Part shown: one piece after another, positions 3,410 through 48,854 of the stretch
How positions within the stretch are numbered: the stretch's first letter is position 1
How the letters are laid out: the number at the start of each line of letters is the position of its first letter
NCBI RefSeq assembly: GCF_013376475.1
Contig: NZ_CP045508.1
Span: 989,501-1,053,500, forward strand
Reading direction: 5' to 3'
DNA: 64,000 nt
Origin: Desulfolutivibrio sulfoxidireducens
GTDB taxonomy: Bacteria; Desulfobacterota; Desulfovibrionia; Desulfovibrionales; Desulfovibrionaceae
Notes under the pieces: model-generated
Seen by the model: the letters and a program-made list of their open reading frames with translations, nothing else
Database searches by the model: none
Told to the model about the DNA's origin: nothing
Translations under genes and position numbers: made by a program

Positions 3410-3910
3410 ATGTCTCGTCGGGCCAGGGGAATCGGATATCTCGCGGCGGCCGTCGCGGCCGTGTGCGCGGCGACGCTGTGTTTGGCCGTAGCGGCCTTTG
3501 CCGGCGAGACGGCCGGGGCGGCGCTGTCCAAGGGCCAGACCATCTACGTGCCGGTCTATTCGCACATCTATCACGGCATCAAGTCCCGGCCGTTCAACCT
3601 GACGGTGACGGTGAGCGTGCGCAACACGGACACGAAGCGGCCCATGACCGTGCTCGCGGCGGACTATTATGACACCGAGGGCGGGCTCGTGCGGCATTTT
3701 CTGGACAAGCCGGCGACCCTGCCGCCGCTTGGCACCCGGGAATTCATCGTGGACGAGCGGGACGAGGCCGGGGGCTCGGGGGCCAACTGCATCGTGCGCT
3801 GGTCGTCGCCCGAGCCGATGAATGCGCCGGTGGTGGAGGCGGTGATGATCGGGGCCAGTTCCAACCAGGGGATATCGTTTTTAAGCGTGGGGAGGGTGAT
3901 CGCGGAGTAG
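3410..3910 (+). CDS. DUF3124 family secreted protein
   Basis: 166 residues. The N-terminus is a signal peptide (basic MSRRARG, then an Ala/Val-rich core, cleavage near AFA-GE around residue 31). The mature part carries the family signature YVPVYSHIYHGIKSRPFNL followed by VSVRNTD and YYDTEGGLV. It forms a beta-sandwich-like sequence ending in FLSVGRVI. The biochemical role of this family is not known; export to the periplasm is inferred from the signal. The ATG at 3410 has GGAGG upstream at good spacing; the ATG at 3383 in the same frame lacks one. It is monocistronic as far as can be seen, divergent from the secreted protein at 2713-3180. Confidence 0.85.
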   Translation: MSRRARGIGYLAAAVAAVCAATLCLAVAAFAGETAGAALSKGQTIYVPVYSHIYHGIKSRPFNLTVTVSVRNTDTKRPMTVLAADYYDTEGGLVRHFLDKPATLPPLGTREFIVDERDEAGGSGANCIVRWSSPEPMNAPVVEAVMIGASSNQGISFLSVGRVIAE

Positions 3911-4347
3911 GGGAGGTCGCCGCGATGGGAGCCGCGATGCGGGGAATGGACAAGGGTTCGCCGGATACGGGGGCCCTTTTTTCGTTCCGTCACCTGGAGG
4001 GCGACAAGGGGCCGCTGTCAGCCCCCCCTTTGCGGCACCAGAATCTACCCCCTTGCATCCCGTCCCGCCTCTCATGACATGGCAATCCCGTTCCCGGCAT
4101 TGCCAATCCCGAACCCTCATGGTTCCCTCCACGGAAATCGGCTCCTTCGTCAAGGCGGCAGAGCGACGGCATTGCGGAAAAGATGCGAATGCCTTCACCA
4201 CCCTGGCTTCACAGCATGGCTTTTGATGGTTATTATATAAAAATAGGGTTTTAAAACAAACGGTTCGGGAAAAAGCGTTTGAAGGATTCGGAAAAGGACG
4301 GTATCAGGAGCATAGCGTCATCTCAAAAAAAGAAACAGGTGACACGA
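3911..4347. other. Intergenic region, AT-rich near 4200-4260
   Basis: No convincing gene. The first 300 bases are GC-rich, with a GGGGGCCC-plus-T-run at 3969-3982 that might be a weak terminator for the preceding gene. The last part (4215-4260) is strongly AT-rich compared with the surroundings, with TATTATATAA at 4231-4240, and is the likely promoter region of the HD-GYP gene. Minus-strand frames here show no start or composition that would support a protein. Confidence 0.5.
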
Positions 4348-5574
4348 ATGGTCGTCAAAATCGGCGTAAACGATCTCTTGGTCGGCATGTACGTCGTCGA
4401 TACCGGCCTTTCCTGGATGGAGCATCCGTACCTGTATTCACGGGAAGGGAGCATTGCCAGCGAGAAACAGCTTACCGCCGTCAAGGAGGAAGGATATGCC
4501 GAGGCCTTCATAGATACGAAGAAGAGCGGTTTCGACGATGCGACGGCAAAGCGCCTTTGCGGCGGGACGCTTTTTGCCGAGGCCTTCGCCGGAAAAGCCC
4601 CGCCACCGCCCGCGCCGGCCTCCGGCATAGACGTGCCCTTGGAGCGGGAACTGCCGGCGGCGAAAAAAATCTACGAGGACGCCCTTTGCTTTGCCAAGGA
4701 CTTCATCCACAAGGCCTATCTGGAAAAGAACGTCGATGTCGAACGCTCCGAGGAATTCGTGGATGACGTCATCTCCAGCGTGGTCCGCAACCGGGAGGCG
4801 TTGACCGGCCTGTGCAAGCTGCGGGTCTACGACGAATACACCTACACCCACAGCATCAACGTGACGGTGCTGGCCACGGCCTTCGGCCAGTTCCTCGGCC
4901 TGGCCGAGGCCGAACTGCGTCCCCTGGGGCTGGCGGCCCTGTTCCACGACGTGGGCAAGGCGAATATCCCCATCGAGGTGCTCAACAAGCCCGGCAGGCT
5001 CGACGAGCGCGAATTCACGGTGATAAAACGCCATCCCCTGGAAGGCTATTCGATCCTCAAGGACAAGGGCGCGCTCAAGGCCCAGGTGCTTCCGGCCATT
5101 GTCGAGCACCACGAGAAATACGACGGCAGCGGCTATCCGCGCGGCATCAGGGGGGAGGACATCTCCCTGTTCGCCCGGATCATCAGCCTGGCCGACGTCT
5201 ACGACGCCCTGACCAGCGATCGGGTCTACAGGAAGGGCATGCCGCCGTCCCATGCCCTGGGCATCATGTACGGCATGCGCGAAAAGGATTTCCATCCGAC
5301 CATGGTCGAGCGGTTCATCAAGTGTCTGGGGGTCTATCCCGTGGGCAGCTTCGTCCGCTTAAGTGACGGCCGCCATGGCCTGGTCTGGTCCTCCAACGCC
5401 CAGGCCCCGCTTCTCCCCACGGTCAAGGCCGCTTTCGACGGGACCCTGCGGCCCATTCCGGCCGAATATGTGGATCTGGCCGCGGACACGGAATCCGGGC
5501 ACCCCGGGCTTTGCATCGAGGAGGCGGTGGACCCCCGTCACCTCAACATCGACCTCGCCGCGGTCATGAATTGA
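4348..5574 (+). CDS. HD-GYP domain cyclic-di-GMP phosphodiesterase
   Basis: 408 residues. The N-terminus (KIGVNDLLVGMYVVD...) is a DUF3391 module of about 100 residues, followed by an Ala/Pro linker and an HD-GYP domain. Catalytic features are visible: LFHDVGKANIP near residue 200, HHEKYDGSGYPRG near 255 and LADVYDALTSDRVYRKG near 285. The family hydrolyses cyclic-di-GMP (some members cyclic GMP-AMP) and lowers its level, affecting motility and biofilm. No membrane segment, so it should be cytosolic. The frame is open from a TTG at 4279; I prefer the ATG at 4348, preceded by AGGTG and beginning right at the domain. It stands alone between unrelated genes. Confidence 0.92.
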   Translation: MVVKIGVNDLLVGMYVVDTGLSWMEHPYLYSREGSIASEKQLTAVKEEGYAEAFIDTKKSGFDDATAKRLCGGTLFAEAFAGKAPPPPAPASGIDVPLERELPAAKKIYEDALCFAKDFIHKAYLEKNVDVERSEEFVDDVISSVVRNREALTGLCKLRVYDEYTYTHSINVTVLATAFGQFLGLAEAELRPLGLAALFHDVGKANIPIEVLNKPGRLDEREFTVIKRHPLEGYSILKDKGALKAQVLPAIVEHHEKYDGSGYPRGIRGEDISLFARIISLADVYDALTSDRVYRKGMPPSHALGIMYGMREKDFHPTMVERFIKCLGVYPVGSFVRLSDGRHGLVWSSNAQAPLLPTVKAAFDGTLRPIPAEYVDLAADTESGHPGLCIEEAVDPRHLNIDLAAVMN

Positions 5575-5643
5575 GATGCCTCATGGCCTGCCGCCGGACT
5601 CGAACACAGCCCCTCGGCCGCAGCGGAAACCGCGTTGCCGGGT

Positions 5644-8600
5644 CTATCCCTCCGTTTGCCCGTCCCCGCCGCAAAGTCCCGTGAAATCGCACCAGGAGCA
5701 GGCCCGGGAGGGCTGCGGCGTAAAGCGCGGCGCGCCGGTCACGTGGCGCAGCAGGTAGTCCACAAGCTCCGGCGTGCGCTCGGAGATCGCGGCCAGGCGC
5801 ACTTCGAGGGGCGTCTCGTCCCCGAAAAGCCCGCGCTCCTCCCCGGAAACCCGCAACTCCACGCACGCCGCCTGAACCGGCGTCTCCCCCCGGGTCACGG
5901 CGTACAAATGGGCGTAAAGCGGCAACTGCACGCTTGCCACCCGCTCCCGGACCTCGGCCAGAAGCCCTTCGTCCTCGATGGCCGCCCGGTCCCCGATCCG
6001 GCCCCAGAACGTCTCGTCCGCCCACAGGGCCTCGCCGGGCTTGCGCGGTTTGCCGGTCTTGTAGTCCAGGATGAAAAGCCCCTCGTCCCGGCGGTCCACC
6101 CGGTCGATGGTCCCGGTGAAAAGCCATTCCCGTCCGGCGGCCGCAAGCCCCACCGAAAGCCGCGTTTCCAGGGAGATCGGCGTTGTGCGCGGCATCCCGG
6201 CCACATACCGGCGAAGCCGCGTTTTGCCCGTTCTCGTCAGGATCAGCCGGGCGTCCGGGGGCATGGCCGCGAAAAAGGGCGCCCCGGCCAGGGCCGCCTC
6301 GTAGCGCTCGAAAAGCCCCTCGAGGGACACGTCCTCGCCGGTGATCTCCCGGCCGACAAAAGGCGCGAAGGTATCGCGCAACACCGCATGCACCAGGACG
6401 CCAAGCTCGGCCACGTCCCCTTCCTCGGCCACCTCCTCCAGGGGGGAGAGCCGCAACACCCGGCGATAGTAGAATCGCAAGGGGCACAGCAGATAATCGT
6501 CCAGAAGGCTCGACGACAGGGGCTTGGCCAGAATCCGGGAAAGCGCCGCGCCCACGGCCGGGGTCTTGTCCACGGCCGCCTCGCGTTTCGCAATGGCCCG
6601 AAGCGGCAGGGACACCATGAAAAGGGGCGGCTCGCCCGGCTCGATGATCTTCCCCCGACGCTTTTCCACCTCCCACAATAGCTGCTCAACGAAGCGGCTG
6701 CGCAGGGGTTTGTCGTCGAAAAGCCCGGTGCTCTGGATGCCCGCCCGGTAGAAAAGGACCACCTCCGAGGCCCCCATGATCAGCCGGAAGAAGTTGTAGG
6801 CGGCCACGATGTCCCGCTGCCGGCTGTCGGCCAGGCCCAGCAGGTGGCGCAGGGGGTCGGGCAAAAGGGGGTCGTGGGGGGCCACCCCGGGCAACAGGTC
6901 GTCCACGGCGTCGAGCAGGTAGATGCGCGAAAAGGACAAAAGCCGCGTCTCCAGCATGCCCATGACCTGGAGCCCGGACAGGGGTTCGGCCTCGAAGGCC
7001 GCCCGCTCGGCCTGAAGCAGCCCGCGCACAAGCGTGAACAGGGTGCGCTGGGGAAAGGGCTCGTCGGCCAGGTCCCCGCCGCGAAGGGCCGGGATGACGC
7101 CGCCCGCGACCCGAAACAGGCATTCGGCGTCGATCAGGAAACGCTCCCAGATGTCCCCGGCGTGGGCCTCGTCGAGGAGAAGGCCGACCAACCCGGCCAG
7201 GGCGTCGCCCAACTGCCGTGGCGTGGCCACGTTTTCGAAGGCCGTCAGGCACACGTGGCGCACCCGATCGGCCAGGGCACGGATATTCTCGCGCCTGCCC
7301 TCGTCCATGGCCTCCCCGGATTCGGCGTCCTCGTCCTCCCCGGGACCCGGCAGGGCGAAGGGGTCCAGGTACCGGCCGCCCCGGCGCACCACGGCCTCCC
7401 AGGCGTGGAACAGCGGCCGCAGGGGTTCGGCGTCGCCCACCTTGAGCATCTTCAGGTACGGATGGCGCACCAGTTCCAGAAAGGCCCGCCAGGAGTAGCG
7501 GCCGGGTCCGAGGCGGGTCTCCTGCAGGCGCAGGATGGTCTCCACAAGCCGGCTCACGGATGAGCGGGCCAGGGGATAGCCCATGCTGATGTTCACGTCC
7601 CGGCGCGGCAGATGGTGCAGGACGGGCATGAGCAGTCCCGTGTCCGGCAGGACCACGGCCGCGTCGGAGATGTCCGGGGCCTCGGCCAGTTCCCGGGAAA
7701 AGGCCAGAAGCTGGGAGTGCAGGTCGTAGCCCTCATGGAAGCGGATGGTCTTTGCGGCCAGAAGCTCTGTGGCGCTTTGCAGGCCGGCGTCGGGAAACAG
7801 GGAATGCTGGCCGTCGCCTTTCGCGCCGCGACGTCCGGAAACCGGGCGCGAGGGCAATGTCCGGCCGTACAGGACCACGGGCGCGCCAAAACGGCGCATC
7901 CAGGCCCCAAGCTCCCGGCAACTGTAGTGGGCGCGTGGCGGGTCCGTGGCCACAAGCGCGTCGGCGTGGCACAAAATATCCAGGCGTCCGGCCTCAAAAA
8001 GGGACCGGAAGATCTTGTCCTCGCTGCCGGATGGGGCGTGGAAGCCGCAGGCGAAAAGCCGCGTGCCGGCACATTTCTCCATGACCGCCGGGACGCTTTC
8101 GGCGGCCAGGGTCTGGCACAGACCCGGGGTGGCCGCGCCGGACTCAAGGAGTCGGACGCGGTAGGCGGCGTGGATGGCCTTGAGGTTGCCGAGCAGGGCC
8201 GCGGCCTGGGGCAGGACCTCCGAGGCCGCGTGGTCGATGTTTTTGGCCGCGATGCCGTGGCGGAAAAGCTCCTCGCACAGCTCGGCCAGACGCAGGCCCC
8301 AGGGAAAAAAGCGGTGCAGTTCCCCGGGAAAGGTGGTCTCCCCGCGCCACGCCTCGTCGCCCCGGCCGGCCTGGAGATCCTGGACGATGGAATAAAGAAG
8401 CCCCACCCGGTCCAGCGGTTCGAGCAGGCGCAACGGACGGCCGTAAACCGTCCGGCCAAGCTCGGCCAGCCACTGGTCCACGGAGGCGATCTCCGGCAGC
8501 AGGCAGGGTTTTTGAAGCCTTGGATCGTCGCGCAGGCGGTCCACAAGGAACCTCCCGGCCCGGCGCAGGGGGAAAAGCACCGTGACCCGCCGGAAGTTCC

Positions 8601-41500: not shown

Positions 41501-42508
41501 CTACGAGACGCCAAAAAGGGCCAGGATTTCGTAACACAGCGCGCCCGCAAGGGCCGCCGCCGGAATGGTCAAAATCCAGGCCAGGACAAGGTTTCCGCAG
41601 ACGCCCCAGCGCACGGCCGAAAGCCGCTTGGAGGCCCCGACGCCGATGACCGCCGTGGAAATGGTGTGGGTGGTGCTGATGGGCGCGCCGAAGCTCGAGG
41701 CCCCGGTGATGACCAGGGCGGCCGCGGTCTCGGCCGCGAATCCGTGGACGGGTTCGAGCTTGAAGATTTTGTGCCCCATGGTCTTGACGATCTTCCAGCC
41801 GCCCGTGGCCGTCCCAAGGCCCATGGCCAGGGCGCAGGACAGCTTGACCCACAGCGGCACGGTCATCTCCGGGATCTGGTGGAAGGTGAAAAGGGCCAGG
41901 GTGATGATGCCCATGGTCTTTTGGGCGTCGTTTAAGCCATGGCTGGTGGCCATGAACGCCGAGGAGGCGATCTGCAGTTTCTTGAAGACGTGGTTGACCT
42001 TGGTCGGGGAGGCGCGCACGAGCAGCCAGGACAGGACCACCATGAACAGATAGCCGCACAGGAAACCGGCCAGGGGCGAAAAAACCAGGGGCAATACGAT
42101 TTTCTCCAGGATGCTCGGGTAGTTGGGCGCGCCAAAGCCGCCGTGGGCGATGGACGCGCCGATGAGCCCGCCGATGAGCGCGTGGGACGAGGAGGACGGC
42201 AGTCCCAGGTACCAGGTCAGACAGTTCCAGACGATGGCCCCGAAAAGGGCCGACAGCACCAGACCCTGGCTGCCCGCCACCAGTTCCGGACTGACGATGC
42301 CGCTGCCGATGGTGTGGGCCACGGCCGTGCCCAGGAGGGCCCCGGCCAGGTTCAGGATGGCGGCCATGGTCACCGCGGCCAGGGGCGAGAGGACCTTGGT
42401 GGAGACCACGGTGGCGATGGCGTTGGCGCTGTCGTGGGCCCCGTTGGTGAAATCGAAGATCAGGGCGATGCCGACCACGGCCACGAGGAGAAGGGGGATA
42501 TCAGGCAT
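41501..42508 (-). CDS. pit: PiT-family low-affinity phosphate transporter
   Basis: 335 residues, about ten transmembrane helices. Family motifs in both halves: FDFTNGAHDSANAIATVVST near residue 18 and TSHGLNDAQKTMGIITLALF near 190; SSSHALIGGLIGASI and SSFGAPISTTHTISTAVIGV are the matching second elements. It moves phosphate with protons (or as metal phosphate). Its start overlaps the DUF47 gene by 8 bp, the usual Pit-accessory layout. Last gene of a minus-strand operon with a sensor kinase and a large PHP-like protein. Confidence 0.96.
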   Translation of the reverse strand: MPDIPLLLVAVVGIALIFDFTNGAHDSANAIATVVSTKVLSPLAAVTMAAILNLAGALLGTAVAHTIGSGIVSPELVAGSQGLVLSALFGAIVWNCLTWYLGLPSSSSHALIGGLIGASIAHGGFGAPNYPSILEKIVLPLVFSPLAGFLCGYLFMVVLSWLLVRASPTKVNHVFKKLQIASSAFMATSHGLNDAQKTMGIITLALFTFHQIPEMTVPLWVKLSCALAMGLGTATGGWKIVKTMGHKIFKLEPVHGFAAETAAALVITGASSFGAPISTTHTISTAVIGVGASKRLSAVRWGVCGNLVLAWILTIPAAALAGALCYEILALFGVS

Positions 42509-43130
42509 TTTTCAGCATGACTCCTTCCAGGATGTCCCCCAGGGCGTCCAGGCGATCCACGGCGCTTTCGATGCGGTCGTAGATGTGGCTCCACTTGACG
42601 ATCTCCAGAATGCTTTCGTAGTCGTGACGTTCACAGTCGTAGAGTTCGCCGATGCCCACCAACAGCAGGGTTTCGCTTTCATATTTCAGCCAGCGGATGT
42701 TCTCCATGTGCTTGTCCGCCTTGGTGTTGGCGGAAAGCCGCTCCAGCATGGCCCCGGAGGCCTCCACCATCCCCTGGATGTTGAGCACCAGCCGCTTGGC
42801 CGGATAGCGCACCCGCGCGGGCTCATAGACCTCGAGCCGTGTGGACACGGCCTTGATGGCGTTGAGGATGTCCTCCTGGGCCACGTTGATGTCGTGGATG
42901 TCCTCGCGGTCGATGGGGGTGATAAAAGTCAGGGAGAGTTCACGGGCGATGGTGCGGGAGATGATGTTGCCCTCGGATTCGATGATGTTGACCTGCTTGC
43001 ACAGTTCCTCCGTGTCCGCCGTGTCCTCGAAAAGCCCGCACAGGTGTCCCGCGGCCTTGATCAGCTTGTTGTTTTGCTCCTGAAAGAGCTTGAAGAATTT
43101 GACCGAGCGCGGGAAAAAGCTGAACCCCAT
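42501..43130 (-). CDS. DUF47/PhoU-like Pit accessory protein
   Basis: 209 residues, all helical. The start GFSFFPRSVKFFKLFQEQNN and ITPIDREDIHDINVAQEDIL with acidic metal-binding residues identify the TIGR00153/DUF47 family, relatives of PhoU that bind metal and modulate Pit activity. The ATG at 43130 is preferred since AAGGAG lies six bases before it; the ATG at 43136 abuts that SD. Stop overlaps pit by 8 bp, so translation is coupled. The sensor kinase gene ends 36 bp upstream. Confidence 0.94.
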   Translation of the reverse strand: MGFSFFPRSVKFFKLFQEQNNKLIKAAGHLCGLFEDTADTEELCKQVNIIESEGNIISRTIARELSLTFITPIDREDIHDINVAQEDILNAIKAVSTRLEVYEPARVRYPAKRLVLNIQGMVEASGAMLERLSANTKADKHMENIRWLKYESETLLLVGIGELYDCERHDYESILEIVKWSHIYDRIESAVDRLDALGDILEGVMLKNA

Positions 43131-43166
43131 GGACATCTCCTTATGCGGGTTGGAGAGGGCGTTTTT

Positions 43167-44924
43167 TTACGCGGCGGACGCGGAGGCCGGGCCCGCGTCC
43201 GGCAGCCGGACGCGAAGGACGTCGTGGCCGGCCGGGACCGCCGTGCCGCCGTAGGCCCCGATGAAGTCCGAAAACAGGGCCGCGTCGTCCCCGCCCGCCC
43301 CGGATGGGGACACAAGGCTCCCGGCTCCGGGGAAATCGATGCGGATGTCCCCGTCGGACCGGGACAAGACCACGGTCGCGTCGTGGCCGGAGGCGGCCAT
43401 GCGGGCCAGGGCCGCGGCAAGGACCCTCCCCAGGCCGTTTGGCTCCACAGCCGCCGGGAAGTCCCCTGGTCCCTGGACCTCGAGGGTGATGGCCGGGGCC
43501 TGCGGGAACCGGGCGGCGGTCTCGCGCAGGGCGTTTTCCAGGATGCGCCGGACATCGGTTCGCGGCGGCCGGTCCATATTTTGGGAAAAACGCGCCGCGG
43601 CCACGGCCACCAGGTCGGCCACGGCCCCCTCCATGTCCGCCACGAAGCCCCGGGCCGAATCAAGGGCGCCTTCGGCCCGGGCCGGGTCGCTTTTGAGAAC
43701 CCCGGCGGCCATGTCCAGATAGCCCGCGATCTTGGTCAGGGGCGTGCGCAGGCGATGGGAGGCCTCGCGCACGAAATCGTGGATATTGGCCCGCATGCGC
43801 GTTTGGCCGGTGACGTCGCGCAGGGTGAGGATCAGCCTTCGCCTGGCGGCCTTGTCCGCGAAGGGGACCAGGCTTATCTCCACGTCGCGTCCGCCGGGCA
43901 GGGTGTAGCGGCGGGTGAACTGCGAGGCCTCGGGGTCGTCAAGCATGGCCGTCACGTCGCCGTGCACGGCCGGCCCCAGGTTCGTTTCGATGGGGAGGCG
44001 GTCTTCCAGGGCCCCCGGTCCCAGGAGGCGGAGCAGGGAGGCGTTGTGGGAACCGATGCGGCCGTCGGGATCGATGACCGCCAGTCCCTCGGCCATGCCG
44101 TCCAGCACGGCGGCGTGGCGGTTGCGCCGGCCCTCGATGGACGCCACATGCCTGCCCACCCGTTCGGCCATGGCGTTGAAGGCCTCGGCCAGCCCGGCCA
44201 GCTCCTTGTCCGGCGGGAGATACAGTCGGCGCGCATAGTCGCCCTCGCCCAGAGCCGAAAGCGCCAGGGTCAGCTCCTTGACCGTCCCGGTCAGGCTTCG
44301 GGTGGGCAGAAGGGACAAAAGTCCTCCCGAGAGCAGCACGAAACCCAGCGCGGCCAGGATGATCCCCCGGAATCGGGCCAGTTCCGTGGTCACGGCGTGG
44401 TAGGGCACGGCCACGCGCAAAACCCCGTCCGGCAGGCCGGGCAGGCCCTGGGCGCGCATGGCGGTATAGACGGTCTGCCGGCCCGTGGTGCGGCTTTGGC
44501 GGATGTCCGTGCCGAATCCGGTGGCCAGGGCGGCCACCACCTCGGGACGTCCGGCGTGGTCCTCGAGTTCGGCCGTGTCCGGTTCGGGGACCTCGGAATC
44601 GGCCAGGACCCGGCCGTCGGCGATATAGGTGACCCTGGCTTTCAGGTGCCGGCCCATGCCGGCGGCCCACTCCGGAAGATCGGCCAGGGCGATGCGCCCG
44701 GCGTCGTCCCCGCCGTCCGTCCGGTCCGCGAGGCCCGGACGGTCCGGGGCCTTTTGCAACAGCCACAGCACGAGTTCCAGCTTGGATGCCGCCAACTCCT
44801 GAGCGTCCTGCACCAAAAGCCGTTCGGTCTGGCGGACAAAGAACCAGAACACCAGACACAGGACGAAAAAAAGCGCTGTCCAACTGAGAAGCAGGTGGCG
44901 AACATGCAGTGAGGACCGTTGCAT
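43167..44924 (-). CDS. PhoR-like membrane histidine kinase with degenerate ATPase
   Basis: 585 residues. TM1 near residues 8-30, periplasmic domain to about 180, TM2 (GIILAALGFVLLSGGLLSLL), HAMP (LALSALGEGDYARRL), PAS (HAAVLDGMAEGLAVIDPDGR) and HisKA with H-box REASHRLRTPLTKIAGYLDM near residue 390. The following ATPase part does not show the usual boxes: LGRVLAAALARMAAS stands where the Asn box should be, FPGAGSL replaces D-x-G-x-G, and the GLGL loop is missing. It may not bind ATP and could act as phosphatase, adaptor or pseudo-kinase. Start ATG at 44924 (TTG at 44942 possible), both with weak SD. In one operon between the PHP-like protein and the DUF47-Pit pair, so a phosphate-linked sensor is likely. 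No response regulator adjoins. Confidence 0.85.
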   Translation of the reverse strand: MQRSSLHVRHLLLSWTALFFVLCLVFWFFVRQTERLLVQDAQELAASKLELVLWLLQKAPDRPGLADRTDGGDDAGRIALADLPEWAAGMGRHLKARVTYIADGRVLADSEVPEPDTAELEDHAGRPEVVAALATGFGTDIRQSRTTGRQTVYTAMRAQGLPGLPDGVLRVAVPYHAVTTELARFRGIILAALGFVLLSGGLLSLLPTRSLTGTVKELTLALSALGEGDYARRLYLPPDKELAGLAEAFNAMAERVGRHVASIEGRRNRHAAVLDGMAEGLAVIDPDGRIGSHNASLLRLLGPGALEDRLPIETNLGPAVHGDVTAMLDDPEASQFTRRYTLPGGRDVEISLVPFADKAARRRLILTLRDVTGQTRMRANIHDFVREASHRLRTPLTKIAGYLDMAAGVLKSDPARAEGALDSARGFVADMEGAVADLVAVAAARFSQNMDRPPRTDVRRILENALRETAARFPQAPAITLEVQGPGDFPAAVEPNGLGRVLAAALARMAASGHDATVVLSRSDGDIRIDFPGAGSLVSPSGAGGDDAALFSDFIGAYGGTAVPAGHDVLRVRLPDAGPASASAA

Positions 44925-45015
44925 TGGTGGTTTCCGGGGCAAGAGGGTTTCGGGAAAATCAGGCCGGGTGGCCGGGCCGCATGTCGCGCCAGGGTCCGGA
45001 TCGCCGTCCGCCCGG

Positions 45016-48000
45016 TCATGAGGCCTGGTCCCGGGCCTCGCCCCGGGGATCGTCCCGGGCGTCCTCGGACGGCGGTGGGGCGTCCCATTCCTGGGGCTGG
45101 GACATGGGGCATTTCCCGGCCAGCCTTTGCAATTCGTCCAGGTATCCCTGGTAGTGGCTCAGATAAAAGGACAGGGCCCGGGCGAAGTTCTTGCCCACCA
45201 GCCCGTCTAAGAAAAGCCTGCTTATCTCGTATTCCCGGCGAAGGACGTATTGGGAGAGCAGAAAGGCCCGCCGCTCGTCCTGGGACATGCCCGGGATGAT
45301 CAGGCGCAGCACCGTGCGGGCGCGCGGCTGATACATCCAGAAATACAGCAGGTCCAGGGCGTTGACGTAGAGGATCTTCTCCAGGTCGGCCTTGTCCGAG
45401 GACAGGGACTCGGAGAGCTCCTGGGGGGACTCGAGCAGGGTCTCGACGTCTTTCTGGGGAAACCGCAGTTCCAGCATGGAATAGGTGTCGTAGAGCTTCT
45501 TGGACTTGGTCTTGTAGTCCCGAAGGCGCATGGCGATATATTTCGAGCGGTCGGCCAGGCCCTCGATGAGGCCGGCCACGCCGTCCGAGCACAGCTTGGA
45601 AATGATGGCCGCCCACTGCTGCATGATGGCCCCGGCGTCCGGCACCCCGGCCGCGCAAAGAAGGACCGTGATCAGGGAGTTCAGGCCGATGGCCAGGGGA
45701 ATGGACAGGGCGCTGCGGAAGAGGTTGCCGGTCACGGCCCGCCTGGGAAGCCCGCGCAGGGCGTTATGGGTGGCGATGTACGCCCCGTTGACCGCGGCCA
45801 TGGCCGTGTACAGGGCCACCGGGTCGGTCTGGGCGGTGATCCCCAGGCCCTGGTCCATGACCAGGGTCTTGACCACATAATCCAGAAGCGGGACCGAAAA
45901 GCCGGTGTACATGAGCGAGTCGGCCAGCCGGGAAAAGCTGACGTATTCGCTCCAGGAGAGCACCGGGGAACGGCGCAGGCCCCCCGAGCCCATGACCGAC
46001 TGGATGACGTTGCGCAGCCCCGTGATGCCGAACCAGATCAGCGGTCCGAACCAGCACAGCACCCACCAGTCCTTGGTCATGGCGAAGGAGACGGCGGCCG
46101 GGACGAATCCGGCCAGGATCTTGAGGAAATTCTTGACCGAGCTTCGGGCATAGCGCCAGGAAAAGCCGGGGGAGCGGGGACCGGACAGGAGTTTTTCCTT
46201 GAAGACCTCACCGCTTGGCGGCTGGATGCCGCCCAGGGTGTAGATGTTGGCCGTTTCCGGCGTGGCCTGGAAGTAGCGGCGTCTGGACCACGTCAGGCGG
46301 GACCGAAGACCGGCGTGCCTGAAAAGCGGGGAAAAAAGCGCCAGCCTGGCCGCCCGGCGGGCCATGGGCGAGGCGTCCAGGGCCGTATGGTACCGCACGG
46401 AGGGCTCCACCTCCACGCCCACGGGCAGGGCCCGGCGCTGGTGTCCCCGGGGATGTTCCAGGTGGCGCACGGCGCGTCCGGGCAGGGTGTCCTTGACCAC
46501 CAGCCCCATGCCGTGGTGACGGCAGGACTGGCCCGTGGAGTCGGTGCCCAGGCAGGCCCGAAGCGGGGAGGTCTTGTAGTAGCCCATGAGTCCGGCCATG
46601 TTGTCCAGCACGCCGGCGAGACGCCTGATCTTTTCGTCCGTCCGGGGGTCCCCCCGCTGCTCGATGCGGCGCATGACCCGGCGTACGAATTTCTTGATCT
46701 TGACCGGATTTCCGGAGTTGACCACGGAGATCAGTTCGATGATCTCGGCGTCGTACCGGGCGGGATCGACCTCGAAGTCGTGCAGGTTGAATATCTCCAC
46801 ATGGGTCACGGCCCCCCGGCATTCGCTTAAAAGCATGAGCAGATCTTCGGGACCGTGCCCGTCCAGGGTCAGGACGAAGCGGTTGAGGGTATGGAATTCG
46901 TGCACCCGCTCGATCAGTTCGCAGGGGGAAAGCCGCAGAATGGCCGGACAGTCCGCGTCGTCGCAGGGGATGTCCGGATTCCTCAGGCCGGGGTTCTGGT
47001 CCGGGCTCAGATAGGCTTCGATGACGTGTTCGGGGCTTAGGCGGTCCATGTGCGAGAACACGGCCGAAAGCTCCGGCCCGTCGGGATGGGCCCCGCCCGC
47101 CAGCAGGCTTTGGGCCCTGTCCCGCAGGGAGGCCTGCACGGCGTTATGGATGAAGCGGCCCAGGTGCATGAGCGAGGCCTGTCCGGCCCCCACGAAGGCC
47201 GTGAACGACTCGGGATGAAGCGGGGGCACGTCCACGCCCGTCTCGGCGGCGATGGCCAGGCGGTGGGTGGCGTCAAACGCCGCCAGGACCTCCATGACGT
47301 AGCGTTTCTGGAACTGGGCCGCCTCCCGGCCCAGGCGCAAGAAAGCCGCCACCTCGGGCTTGGTCAGAAATTCCAAAAACTCCCCGATCTCGGTGAACCC
47401 CCGGGGGATCCAGATCATTTTGAGATAGCCCCCGTTGTGCCGGGTACGGTATTCGAGCCCGATGCGCACGGAGATGCCCATGATCCGGGCGGCCTGCAAA
47501 AGCTCCGAGGCCACCTCCGGGCGCACGAAGTTGTTGTGGATGACCGTGAGCTTGCGGATGCCCTTGATCCAGGCGTCCATGATCAGGTGGGTGGGGGACT
47601 TGCGGCCCTTGGTGTTGGCGTCGTGGACGTGGTCGTCGAAGGCCAACTGGTTCCACTCCTCGGGCATCTCCAACAGGTGGTAGTCGGCAAGTCCCCGGCG
47701 CACCACGCGCGGCTTGCCCGAGGAGGCGGCCCGAAAGTCATGGGCCAGTTCCAACTGGCGCACGGGGTCGTCGCCCAGGCGCACCAGTTCCTTGATGATC
47801 TGCAAAAGAAGGCGGGCCGTGTTTTTTTCCAGCTCGCTTTCGGCCGAGAGGAAAACCTCGTCCCGAAGCGATCGCAGGGCCTTGATGCGGTCCCCGGCCA
47901 TGCCCGCCTCCAGGGACCCCAGGAGGTGGACGATGGCGTAGGCGATGCGCAGTTCCCGGGGAGCGGCCATTTCCTTGATGCCGTGGGGATGCAGGTAGGT

Positions 48001-48168
48001 GGCCAAAAGACGCCGCAGGCCAGGGAATTTCTTGCGGCTTAAAACGTCGTTGACGATCTTTAAGAGGGCGTAGTCCTCCCGGTCGAACATCAGGCGCGAC
48101 AGAAGACCTCCCTCGGACTGGCAAGGGATTCCGGCCTGGGCCGAAGGGGGGGCAAGGGTATCGGGCAC
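45016..48168 (-). CDS. Large PHP-like membrane protein, undescribed
   Basis: 1050 residues from a GTG at 48168 (GAGGGATCCA before it). Residues 180-270 look like a PHP metallophosphoesterase core: FDDHVHDANTKGRKSPTHLI (H-x-H), GIRKLTVIHNN (place of the usual T-D-H-N), and GISVRIGLEYRT (the G-x-E element). Residues 270-560 are helical and soluble, with DRLSPEHVIEAYLSPDQNPG. From about 690 several hydrophobic segments occur (FLKILAGFVPAAVSFAM, WWVLCWFGPLIWFGI, LSIPLAIGLNSLITVLLC), then a soluble tail with LYFWMYQPRARTVLRLIIPG. It may hydrolyse a phosphoester at the membrane. First gene of the operon with the sensor kinase (91 bp downstream), DUF47 and Pit, which suggests a part in phosphate homeostasis. 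No family name recognised. Confidence 0.8.
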   Translation of the reverse strand: MPDTLAPPSAQAGIPCQSEGGLLSRLMFDREDYALLKIVNDVLSRKKFPGLRRLLATYLHPHGIKEMAAPRELRIAYAIVHLLGSLEAGMAGDRIKALRSLRDEVFLSAESELEKNTARLLLQIIKELVRLGDDPVRQLELAHDFRAASSGKPRVVRRGLADYHLLEMPEEWNQLAFDDHVHDANTKGRKSPTHLIMDAWIKGIRKLTVIHNNFVRPEVASELLQAARIMGISVRIGLEYRTRHNGGYLKMIWIPRGFTEIGEFLEFLTKPEVAAFLRLGREAAQFQKRYVMEVLAAFDATHRLAIAAETGVDVPPLHPESFTAFVGAGQASLMHLGRFIHNAVQASLRDRAQSLLAGGAHPDGPELSAVFSHMDRLSPEHVIEAYLSPDQNPGLRNPDIPCDDADCPAILRLSPCELIERVHEFHTLNRFVLTLDGHGPEDLLMLLSECRGAVTHVEIFNLHDFEVDPARYDAEIIELISVVNSGNPVKIKKFVRRVMRRIEQRGDPRTDEKIRRLAGVLDNMAGLMGYYKTSPLRACLGTDSTGQSCRHHGMGLVVKDTLPGRAVRHLEHPRGHQRRALPVGVEVEPSVRYHTALDASPMARRAARLALFSPLFRHAGLRSRLTWSRRRYFQATPETANIYTLGGIQPPSGEVFKEKLLSGPRSPGFSWRYARSSVKNFLKILAGFVPAAVSFAMTKDWWVLCWFGPLIWFGITGLRNVIQSVMGSGGLRRSPVLSWSEYVSFSRLADSLMYTGFSVPLLDYVVKTLVMDQGLGITAQTDPVALYTAMAAVNGAYIATHNALRGLPRRAVTGNLFRSALSIPLAIGLNSLITVLLCAAGVPDAGAIMQQWAAIISKLCSDGVAGLIEGLADRSKYIAMRLRDYKTKSKKLYDTYSMLELRFPQKDVETLLESPQELSESLSSDKADLEKILYVNALDLLYFWMYQPRARTVLRLIIPGMSQDERRAFLLSQYVLRREYEISRLFLDGLVGKNFARALSFYLSHYQGYLDELQRLAGKCPMSQPQEWDAPPPSEDARDDPRGEARDQAS

Positions 48169-48458
48169 TGGATCCCTCTGTCACGCTCCCGTGACAATAA
48201 CGTCCAATTCTTCACAAGATTATGCCAACGGCAAGGCGTTCACGTCAAGGCGCTGGCCGAATCCCGGTGTCGCCTCCGGGGGGCCGGCCGGCGGGAAACG
48301 GCGTTGACAACCGTCGTCCCCTGAGAGATGTATATCCTTGTGTTTTCAGGATGAAGGCCCCGGACGGGGCGGGGACGCCTTTTGGCGTGACGTCGGGGTG
48401 CGACGGCGGATCGGCGTGGTTCCAAAACGGGTGCGCCCGGGAAGACGGGGAGAAGCCT

Positions 48459-48854
48459 GTGGATGTCTTGAGCGTCACGGGGGCCATGGAAAGGATCGGC
48501 TACGATGTGGAGCTCTATCTGGATCTGTGCCGTATCTGTCTCCAGGAGTTTCCGGCCAGGCGCGAAAGAATGCTCGGATACCCAAATCCGGGCGGTGCGG
48601 ACGAGATGTTCCGACTGGCCCATTCCTGCAGGAATGCCTGCGGGGCCATCGGGGCCGAGGCCTGCGCGGCGCTTTCCGCCAGGGTGGAGAAGGCCGCCCG
48701 GGCCGGGGAGGTCGCTACGGCCAGGGGGCTTCTGTCCGATCTCGCCAGGGAACTGGCCAGGGTGGAGCGGGCGGTGCAACGGGTCCTGGAGGACCCTGTG
48801 GCCTTCGGGTTGGTCGGTGGGGAGGGCCACCCGCCGCCAGGCGATTTCGTTTAA
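48459..48854 (+). CDS. Hpt-domain phosphotransfer protein
   Basis: 131 residues from GTG at 48459 (GGGGAG six bases before). The stretch MFRLAHSCRNACGAIGAEAC then LSARVEKAARAGEVATARGL has the four-helix Hpt pattern with phospho-His in AHSCRN near residue 52. Hpt proteins pass phosphate between receivers in multistep relays; partners could be the hybrid kinase at 24178-25476 or proteins outside the window. The open frame begins at 48222, but the extra N-terminus is not protein-like. Divergent from the PHP-like gene. Confidence 0.8.
   Translation: MDVLSVTGAMERIGYDVELYLDLCRICLQEFPARRERMLGYPNPGGADEMFRLAHSCRNACGAIGAEACAALSARVEKAARAGEVATARGLLSDLARELARVERAVQRVLEDPVAFGLVGGEGHPPPGDFV

Follow-up and report, generated by a model that had tools for sequence, protein, structure and literature searches.

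In a 64,000-nucleotide window from Desulfolutivibrio sulfoxidireducens (the whole stretch of DNA that was analysed, contig NZ_CP045508.1, positions 989,501 to 1,053,500; coordinates below count from its first letter unless another locus is named), four genes stand in a row on the minus strand. The first encodes a protein of 1050 residues, for which we use the working name BIG; it is followed by a PhoR-type sensor, the regulator PitR and the phosphate transporter Pit. These genes and two segments of BIG are located as follows:

45016-48168, minus strand: BIG, 1050 residues, GTG start, from the list of open reading frames (ORFs); without Pfam match
43167-44924, minus strand: PhoR-type sensor with HAMP, PAS and partial HisKA, without HATPase_c (Pfam, NCBIfam, alignment)
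42501-43130, minus strand: PitR (PhoU_div, DUF47; PF01865, E 1.3e-17)
41501-42508, minus strand: Pit, low-affinity phosphate transporter, 335 residues (PF01384, E 8.8e-100)
47614-47643, minus strand: BIG residues 176-185, H-x-H motif of PHP strand 1 (conservation, RNase AM-like alignment)
45562-46143, minus strand: BIG residues 676-869, six predicted membrane helices (topology, fold model)

Read from BIG towards Pit, the intergenic gaps are 91, 36 and -8 bp. A GAGGG element resembling a ribosome site lies just 5′ of the BIG GTG, and an AAGGAG-like ribosome site precedes the PitR ATG, which is located within an ORF opening at 43136; the sensor ATG is likewise internal to its ORF, which opens at 44942. 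The original prediction, made from the sequence alone, had described these four minus-strand ORFs with the same coordinates and gaps, and the ORF list agrees. It had also read the last two genes as a Pit phosphate uptake pair, which both Pfam models support above their cut-offs, and had called the sensor non-canonical, consistent with the absence of HATPase_c. In the first gene it had noted H-x-H and G-x-E elements, which proved to be conserved, and membrane segments, of which six are predicted; it could place the protein in no named family, and Pfam likewise returned nothing at E ≤ 1. The order BIG-sensor-DUF47-Pit is common to all three genus members examined (the window and loci L111 and L112), and because L111 and L112 retain it, the four-gene row is a conserved unit. 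A single transcript would cover all four genes, and no terminator-like site on the same strand was found in the BIG-sensor gap. A single promoter-like site turned up (48248-48219, minus strand), which is at chance level with 0.7 expected, and the nine terminator-like sites found are little above the expected 5.6 (standard deviation 2.4).

BIG is composed of the following parts:

Residues ~22-165: helical N-terminus
Residues ~172-580: RNase AM-like PHP barrel with helical insertion
Residues 581-655: beta add-on
Residues 676-870: six-transmembrane domain
Residues 871-1022: helical C-terminus

The AlphaFold2 model of BIG, built with 67 sequences, reached a mean pLDDT of 86.6 and a pTM of 0.86. 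Compared with solved structures by VIA, its barrel gave Z 19.7 to 3e0f (root-mean-square deviation (rmsd) 2.7, 251 residues aligned), Z 18.4 to CV1693 (2yb1) and Z 18.3 to Vibrio cholerae RNase AM (9etk; rmsd 3.6, 264 aligned), and Foldseek matched it to 3o0f at E 8.8e-6. By these computations, BIG contains a PHP fold of the RNase AM/CV1693 type. Profile comparison points to a sequence homology between BIG and RNase AM that is independent of the fold model: hhalign against a profile of 30 RNase AM-like sequences, taken from the own genome and its relatives, gave E 3e-7 (Prob 93, 136 columns) over a span that takes in HxH, GxE and the helical insertion (strands 1-3 plus the insertion), and aligned H335 of BIG with the histidine of the RPH motif. 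The second half of the PHP domain gave no convincing hhalign alignment to RNase AM-like proteins. In the genome search, BIG residues 176-272 matched one RNase AM-like protein, identified by its coordinates, at E 6.9e-5. The PHP model PF02811 matched neither the window protein (E ≤ 1) nor any of 32 PHP-region sequences (E ≤ 0.1). Five other Pfam families each matched the PHP region of a single family member and were rejected as chance.

Residues were counted in an alignment of 67 BIG sequences, 66 of them distinct (L004 duplicates L038), and the ligand counts use the 66; the segment conservation, the invariant membrane residues and the Pfam matches of the membrane domain given below refer to the 67. 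The ligand set compared has nine members in total, among which we take the second HxH histidine of RNase AM to be one. According to the available text of PMC9410882, RNase AM holds three manganese ions, alpha at H13, E72 and D255, beta at E72, H83 and H198, and gamma at D20, H45 and H257, and its activity is disrupted in the mutants D20A, E72A and D255/H257A. BIG keeps four of the nine ligands, H180 (63 of 66 sequences), H182 (all 66), E239 (60) and D543 (59), and the other five are replaced. The position of RNase AM D20 is occupied by lysine in 61 of 66 (K187), that of H45 by tyrosine in 62 of 66 (asparagine, N212, in the window and one other), that of H83 by variable glutamine, lysine or arginine (K250), that of H198 mostly by asparagine (38 of 66; T434 in the window) and that of H257 by threonine in 57 of 66 (T545). 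Equivalences in the first half come from hhalign, and those of D543, T545 and T434 from motif and strand order. At least one of H180, E239 and D543 is missing in 11 of the 66 distinct proteins. At most one metal site, alpha, is left in the BIG PHP domain, and because five of the nine ligands are replaced, three-metal hydrolysis of the RNase AM type is unlikely. A comparable case is described for DNA polymerases in the available part of PMC5636811, where DnaE1 has nine ligand residues and Escherichia coli Pol III alpha, with five of the nine altered, lacks exonuclease activity. The strong conservation of D183, N185, K190 and K492 across the BIG family argues that the site still binds something.

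Downstream of the barrel, family-mean hydropathy and the model helices place six membrane segments between residues 676 and 870, with moderate hydropathy peaks of 1.1 to 1.9. Most PHP-side loops contain more basic than acidic residues, and loops on the other side are nearly free of basic residues; because of this pattern, the positive-inside rule predicts that the PHP and C-terminal helical domains are cytoplasmic. The membrane domain is the most conserved long segment of BIG, with 52 of 195 positions at least 95% identical, whereas the N-terminus reaches 27 of 144 and the C-terminus 20 of 152 (for PHP strands 1-3, a short segment, the figure is 23 of 87), and R719, R805, R818 and K858 within it are invariant. 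Folded alone, it gave a pLDDT of 88.9 and a pTM of 0.79. Residues 660-1026 had no Foldseek match among solved structures at E ≤ 0.001 (best 0.31), and the best VIA comparison reached Z 5.9 at rmsd 12.5. By these comparisons the membrane domain has no convincing match to a solved fold, which does not make its fold a new one. The rows for XPR1, KimA, RND and MFS proteins are at noise level, and Pfam matches among 67 members (Sigma70_r4_2 in 6, Pneumo_ncap in 5 and DUF6622 in 2) were scattered and weak and were set aside as chance. The membrane domain was matched in 47 of 395 genomes, in 45 of them within a BIG frame (among these, G312 is seemingly cut by a contig end and G199 is very distant); the two matches outside BIG frames are short, weak and stray, and no free-standing membrane domain was seen in the 395 genomes.

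BIG is a large family, nameless in the libraries searched. It was matched in 249 of the 297 sampled genomes of the class, in 32 of the 297 genomes sampled evenly across the phylum and in 30 of 39 relatives, the own genome counted among them. Of 541 candidate stretches in genome_contigs, 529 code for a BIG relative; the best 80 of the 529 were taken for comparison, and the titles of these 80 are mostly Desulfobacterota (delta-proteobacteria), with single metagenome-assembled genomes (MAGs) labelled KSB3, CSSED10-310 and Alphaproteobacteria. Searches of NCBIfam and of PDB sequences gave nothing or chance-level matches only, the family profile reached only E ≥ 0.21 against the PDB, and tblastn of the plasmid collection found nothing. 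No description of the family was found in the literature searched, which mostly did not include subscription journals. Several genomes (G018, G010, G114, G382 and others of genera g34 and g8) carry two copies, which are about 41-50% identical to the window protein, and a division of labour between them is possible. At L035, where BIG matches run to 6523, a frame of 1078 residues directly follows BIG on the opposite strand (3416-6649, minus) and looks like a tail-to-tail duplicate. The very distant BIG-like protein of G199, a 954-residue frame from another phylum family (G199:C1:4415339-4417648; 30-34% over pieces), is usable as an outgroup.

The two genes at the Pit end are, by their model scores, an ordinary PitR(DUF47)-Pit pair: Pit scores 334.5 bits with PF01384 (cut-off 33.7), and PitR scores 64.3 bits with PF01865 (cut-off 24.4) and 36.8 bits with TIGR00153, under the cut-off of 104.3. 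In the sensor, Pfam identified HAMP, PAS and a HisKA domain at 24.1 bits, under the cut-off of 26.9, with 33.7 and 34.3 bits in the genus orthologs of L111 and L112, respectively. The phospho-acceptor histidine is kept in an SHRLRTPL box. HATPase_c had no Pfam match in the sensors of the window, L111 and L112, and the aligned region of all three lacks the N and G boxes. The best NCBIfam matches, WalK, PnpS and PhoR, are far under their cut-offs (57.8 bits for TIGR02966, cut-off 334.2). Identity of the sensor to its genus orthologs is 69-71%, with the frame open in all three members, and about 31% to intact kinases encoded in the BIG-Pit gaps of L046 (from a MAG named Desulfonatronum) and of L136; these carry HATPase_c and likewise have PnpS, WalK and PhoR as best NCBIfam matches, all under cut-offs. 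The sensor is of PhoR type, with the histidine box kept and the ATP-binding domain lost, and because HATPase_c is absent it is not expected to autophosphorylate.

Histidine kinases are very numerous in the own genome (G000), where the PhoR model has matches at 67 places (E ≤ 1e-20); an intact kinase at genome positions 4080173-4081195 comes nearest to PhoR, and at 257.8 bits it too is under the TIGR02966 cut-off. A second sensor without an ATP-binding domain stands beside PitR-Pit in another genus: at L230 (G011; 6478-7905, minus strand) a PhoR-like protein of 476 residues ends right after HisKA, directly before PitR-Pit. At L226, L228 and L229 an intact PhoR-type kinase adjoins Pit-PitR, in stretches that showed no BIG; at L224, L225 and L227 Pit-PitR has no such kinase alongside. 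Because relatives keep a PhoR-type kinase beside Pit-PitR, the kinase-PitR-Pit part of the unit is a known kind of arrangement. In Staphylococcus aureus, according to the available text of PMC13170248, PitR together with PitA represses PhoR.

We compared the surroundings of 121 distinct BIG loci, 74 of which have at least 5 kb of flank on both sides. Among these 74, the fetched flank contains a Pit gene in 9 and a PitR gene in 9, and Pit is also present at L062, L067 and L095, whose flanks are shorter. When the BIG proteins of these three loci are joined with the 74 in a FastTree tree of 77, a minimum of four changes is required to explain the Pit label. Gene orders differ among the loci. BIG-sensor-PitR-Pit is found at the three loci of the window genus; BIG-Pit-PitR at L220 (= L046), L115, L116 and L136, with a homologous PhoR-type kinase on the opposite strand in the BIG-Pit gap of L046 and L136; PitR-Pit-BIG at L202 (= L050) and L067; and Pit-PitR-BIG at L062, with a gap of about 25 bp to the first BIG start codon. 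L095 and L105 have a large divergent Pit-type frame (669-772 residues) 5′ of BIG, without PitR, and at L079 a PitR gene lies immediately 5′ of BIG in a flank without Pit. On the Pit side, the gene next to BIG is a DUF389 gene in L095 and a DUF4143 gene in L105; a large Pit-type frame is likewise placed divergently near BIG in G618:C51.

Pit was also mapped in 72 BIG-bearing genomes from 50 genera, some of them the same organisms as the loci. In eight, Pit and BIG are at most 10 kb apart on one contig (G000, G001, G002, G026, G031, G035, G313 and G618), compared with 0.45 expected by a simple uniform-placement estimate from genome sizes, an enrichment of about 18-fold. Counted by genus, 4 of 50 are Pit-near versus 0.31 expected (P about 3e-4). 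A link between BIG and phosphate is likely, but it is not general, and we moderately favour a functional tie over chance because several lineages are involved, gene orders differ, and PitR and PhoR-type sensors recur. On the other side of BIG in the window, an Hpt-domain (phosphotransfer) gene (48222-48854, plus strand) begins about 54 bp from the BIG start on the opposite strand; the frames called upstream of BIG in L111 and L112 are long and on the minus strand. Past Pit, L111 (offset about +10.5 kb) and L112 (offset about +9.0 kb) have a second DUF47-like match on the opposite strand.

Our tentative reading, which we hold with less than even confidence, is that BIG is a ligand-sensing PHP protein that regulates its own membrane domain and is tied in this genus to Pit through PitR and the sensor. 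Pit, PitR and the PhoR-derived sensor would form a unit for phosphate uptake and phosphate sensing to which BIG is added as a membrane protein. In the mechanism we infer, the PHP domain would have given up RNase AM chemistry and would serve as a binding module, or hold one metal at most. The ligand might be a phosphorylated small molecule or phosphate itself, bound by H180, H182, E239 and D543 together with the highly conserved basic residues K187, R189, K190 and K492. Ligand binding would alter the membrane domain's state; this domain, with its invariant R719, R805, R818 and K858, is a candidate for an anion channel, a transporter or the partner of a transporter. In this genus the output of the membrane domain may be coupled to Pit traffic through PitR and the sensor, and in several lineages BIG could have been recruited to phosphate control. 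We consider it quite improbable that BIG goes further and founds a class of phosphate-homeostasis proteins in bacteria, as the first member of that class, in which a former PHP phosphoesterase domain, with lysine where the third metal had its aspartate, has become a phospho-ligand sensor and controls the gate of a new six-helix channel or exporter for anions (phosphate), working against Pit import; such a class would be a bacterial counterpart of the SPX-EXS exporters by logic and not by descent.

Several observations weigh against this reading. Pit is not near BIG in 64 of the 72 genomes, and since Pit is missing altogether from 15 of the 72, the general job of BIG cannot need Pit. The tree needs only four changes of the Pit label; the BIG-Pit-PitR and PitR-Pit-BIG loci share one clade and may represent one event, although their gene order and Pit length (about 411 versus 336 residues) differ; and one clade also holds two of the four Pit-near genera (the Desulfonatronum-like g25 and g218), which may therefore count as a single event. 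Counted as three lineages, the adjacency has P about 0.004; without the window genus, which was the source of the question, it has P about 0.004 by genus (3 of 49) and about 0.04 as two lineages. The downstream gene is on the BIG strand in 48 of 98 cases, and neither ORF clustering of 108 loci nor Pfam scans of called neighbours (downstream 92 of 98, upstream 97 of 103) found a constant partner of BIG. These scans left aside the window, L112 and L032 (near-duplicate loci), the upstream neighbour of L111, and neighbours at least 1 kb away or shorter than 60 residues; the commonest were response regulators (7), PAS/kinase domains (6), GDPD (4), shikimate dehydrogenase (4) and LysR (4), and Pit occurred twice downstream and twice upstream. 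The equivalence of D543/T545 and of the HP motif rests on motif and strand order, as hhalign gave no convincing alignment for the second half of the PHP domain.

Much of this would fit a housekeeping protein of envelope, membrane or RNA metabolism unrelated to phosphate, beside which Pit came to lie by lineage-specific chance or through co-regulation. The breadth of the family (249 of 297 class genomes), its mixed neighbourhoods, downstream genes on the same strand in about half of the cases (48 of 98) and the 15 of 72 genomes without Pit are all compatible with such a role, and the stricter lineage counts (P 0.004 to 0.04) keep chance alive. We nevertheless regard it as doubtful, though a serious contender, given an adjacency about 18-fold over expectation by genome and four genera versus 0.3 expected, with PitR present in most Pit-near cases and in differing gene orders. 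A role as an active one-metal membrane phosphoesterase, which would release phosphate in the cytoplasm and be balanced by Pit and PitR, much as the original prediction had it, is unlikely. Its fold is nearest to phosphoesterases and the alpha-site ligands are widely kept (H180 63, H182 66, E239 60 and D543 59 of 66), but the other beta and gamma ligands are replaced by lysine, tyrosine or asparagine, and threonine, among others, and 11 of the 66 proteins lack one or more of H180, E239 and D543. In the available texts, changes at such positions disrupted RNase AM (D20A, E72A, D255/H257A; PMC9410882) and accompany an inactive exonuclease in Pol III alpha (five of nine altered; PMC5636811). The losses of metal ligands lowered our estimate for a plain PHP hydrolase as well. 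Still less probable, in our view, is that the sensor is no more than a PhoR paralog in decay, and that transcription from an unrelated gene upstream simply reads through into an ordinary Pit-PitR operon. The sensor has lost its ATP-binding domain, an intact PhoR-like kinase exists elsewhere in the genome at 4.08 Mb, and relatives have PhoR-type kinase-Pit-PitR without BIG; however, the domain-less frame is open in all three genus members at 69-71% identity and a similar stop after HisKA precedes PitR-Pit in the other genus (L230), which argue for a kept sensor function.

The original prediction had envisaged phosphate release and uptake, or phosphate sensing, by a system not described before, with a PHP-like metal site in the predicted structure and homologs beside pit genes. 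The barrel is indeed predicted (VIA Z 18-20), but five of nine metal ligands are replaced, and with three-metal hydrolysis unlikely the release of phosphate loses its footing. Homologs stand beside Pit in some other lineages, so the case that would have refuted the prediction, homologs never adjoining pit, did not arise, but 64 of the 72 BIG-bearing genomes have BIG away from Pit. As to novelty, no description of BIG was found, whereas the sensor-PitR-Pit part is a known arrangement. The parts are thus of known kinds (PHP fold, Pit, PitR and PhoR-type sensor), and it is the fused protein and its membrane domain for which the literature searched gave no description.

BIG is widespread in the class (249 of 297) and occurs in other Desulfobacterota, yet has no Pfam match and no assigned function that we could find. 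The sensing reading offers a testable idea, namely that a crippled PHP domain acts as a sensor on a membrane domain without recognised fold, and if BIG acts in phosphate control, it would be a component missed by surveys of Pst, Pit, NptA, PhoU and PitR. The sensor lacking its ATP domain raises the question of whether PitR could signal through a histidine domain that is unable to self-phosphorylate.

Compared with known systems, genes 3 and 4 are identical in kind to a PitR-Pit pair, adjacent and overlapping by 8 bp; unlike an ordinary pair, they are combined with BIG and with a PhoR-type sensor that lacks the ATP-binding domain. With PhoR/PnpS kinases the sensor shares the HAMP-PAS-HisKA order and the SHRLRTPL phospho-acceptor histidine, whereas HATPase_c is absent and model scores are far below the cut-offs. 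In the XPR1/PHO1 (SPX-EXS) phosphate exporters, a membrane domain carries a domain for ligand binding on its cytoplasmic side, again in connection with phosphate, and BIG may be likened to them as a working analogy only, by its predicted cytoplasmic domain and membrane domain; it has no sequence or convincing fold likeness to XPR1 (Foldseek E 3.6, VIA Z 4.4 at rmsd 6.8). The closest relation is to RNase AM (YciV) and CV1693, with which BIG has in common the PHP barrel, the HxH of strand 1, the GxE of strand 3 and a helical insertion after strand 3 with a conserved histidine (H335). It differs from them in the replacement of five of nine ligands, the loss of the RPH arginine (L333) and the missing PF02811 match, and in carrying an extra long N-terminal helical domain, a beta add-on and a six-transmembrane domain.

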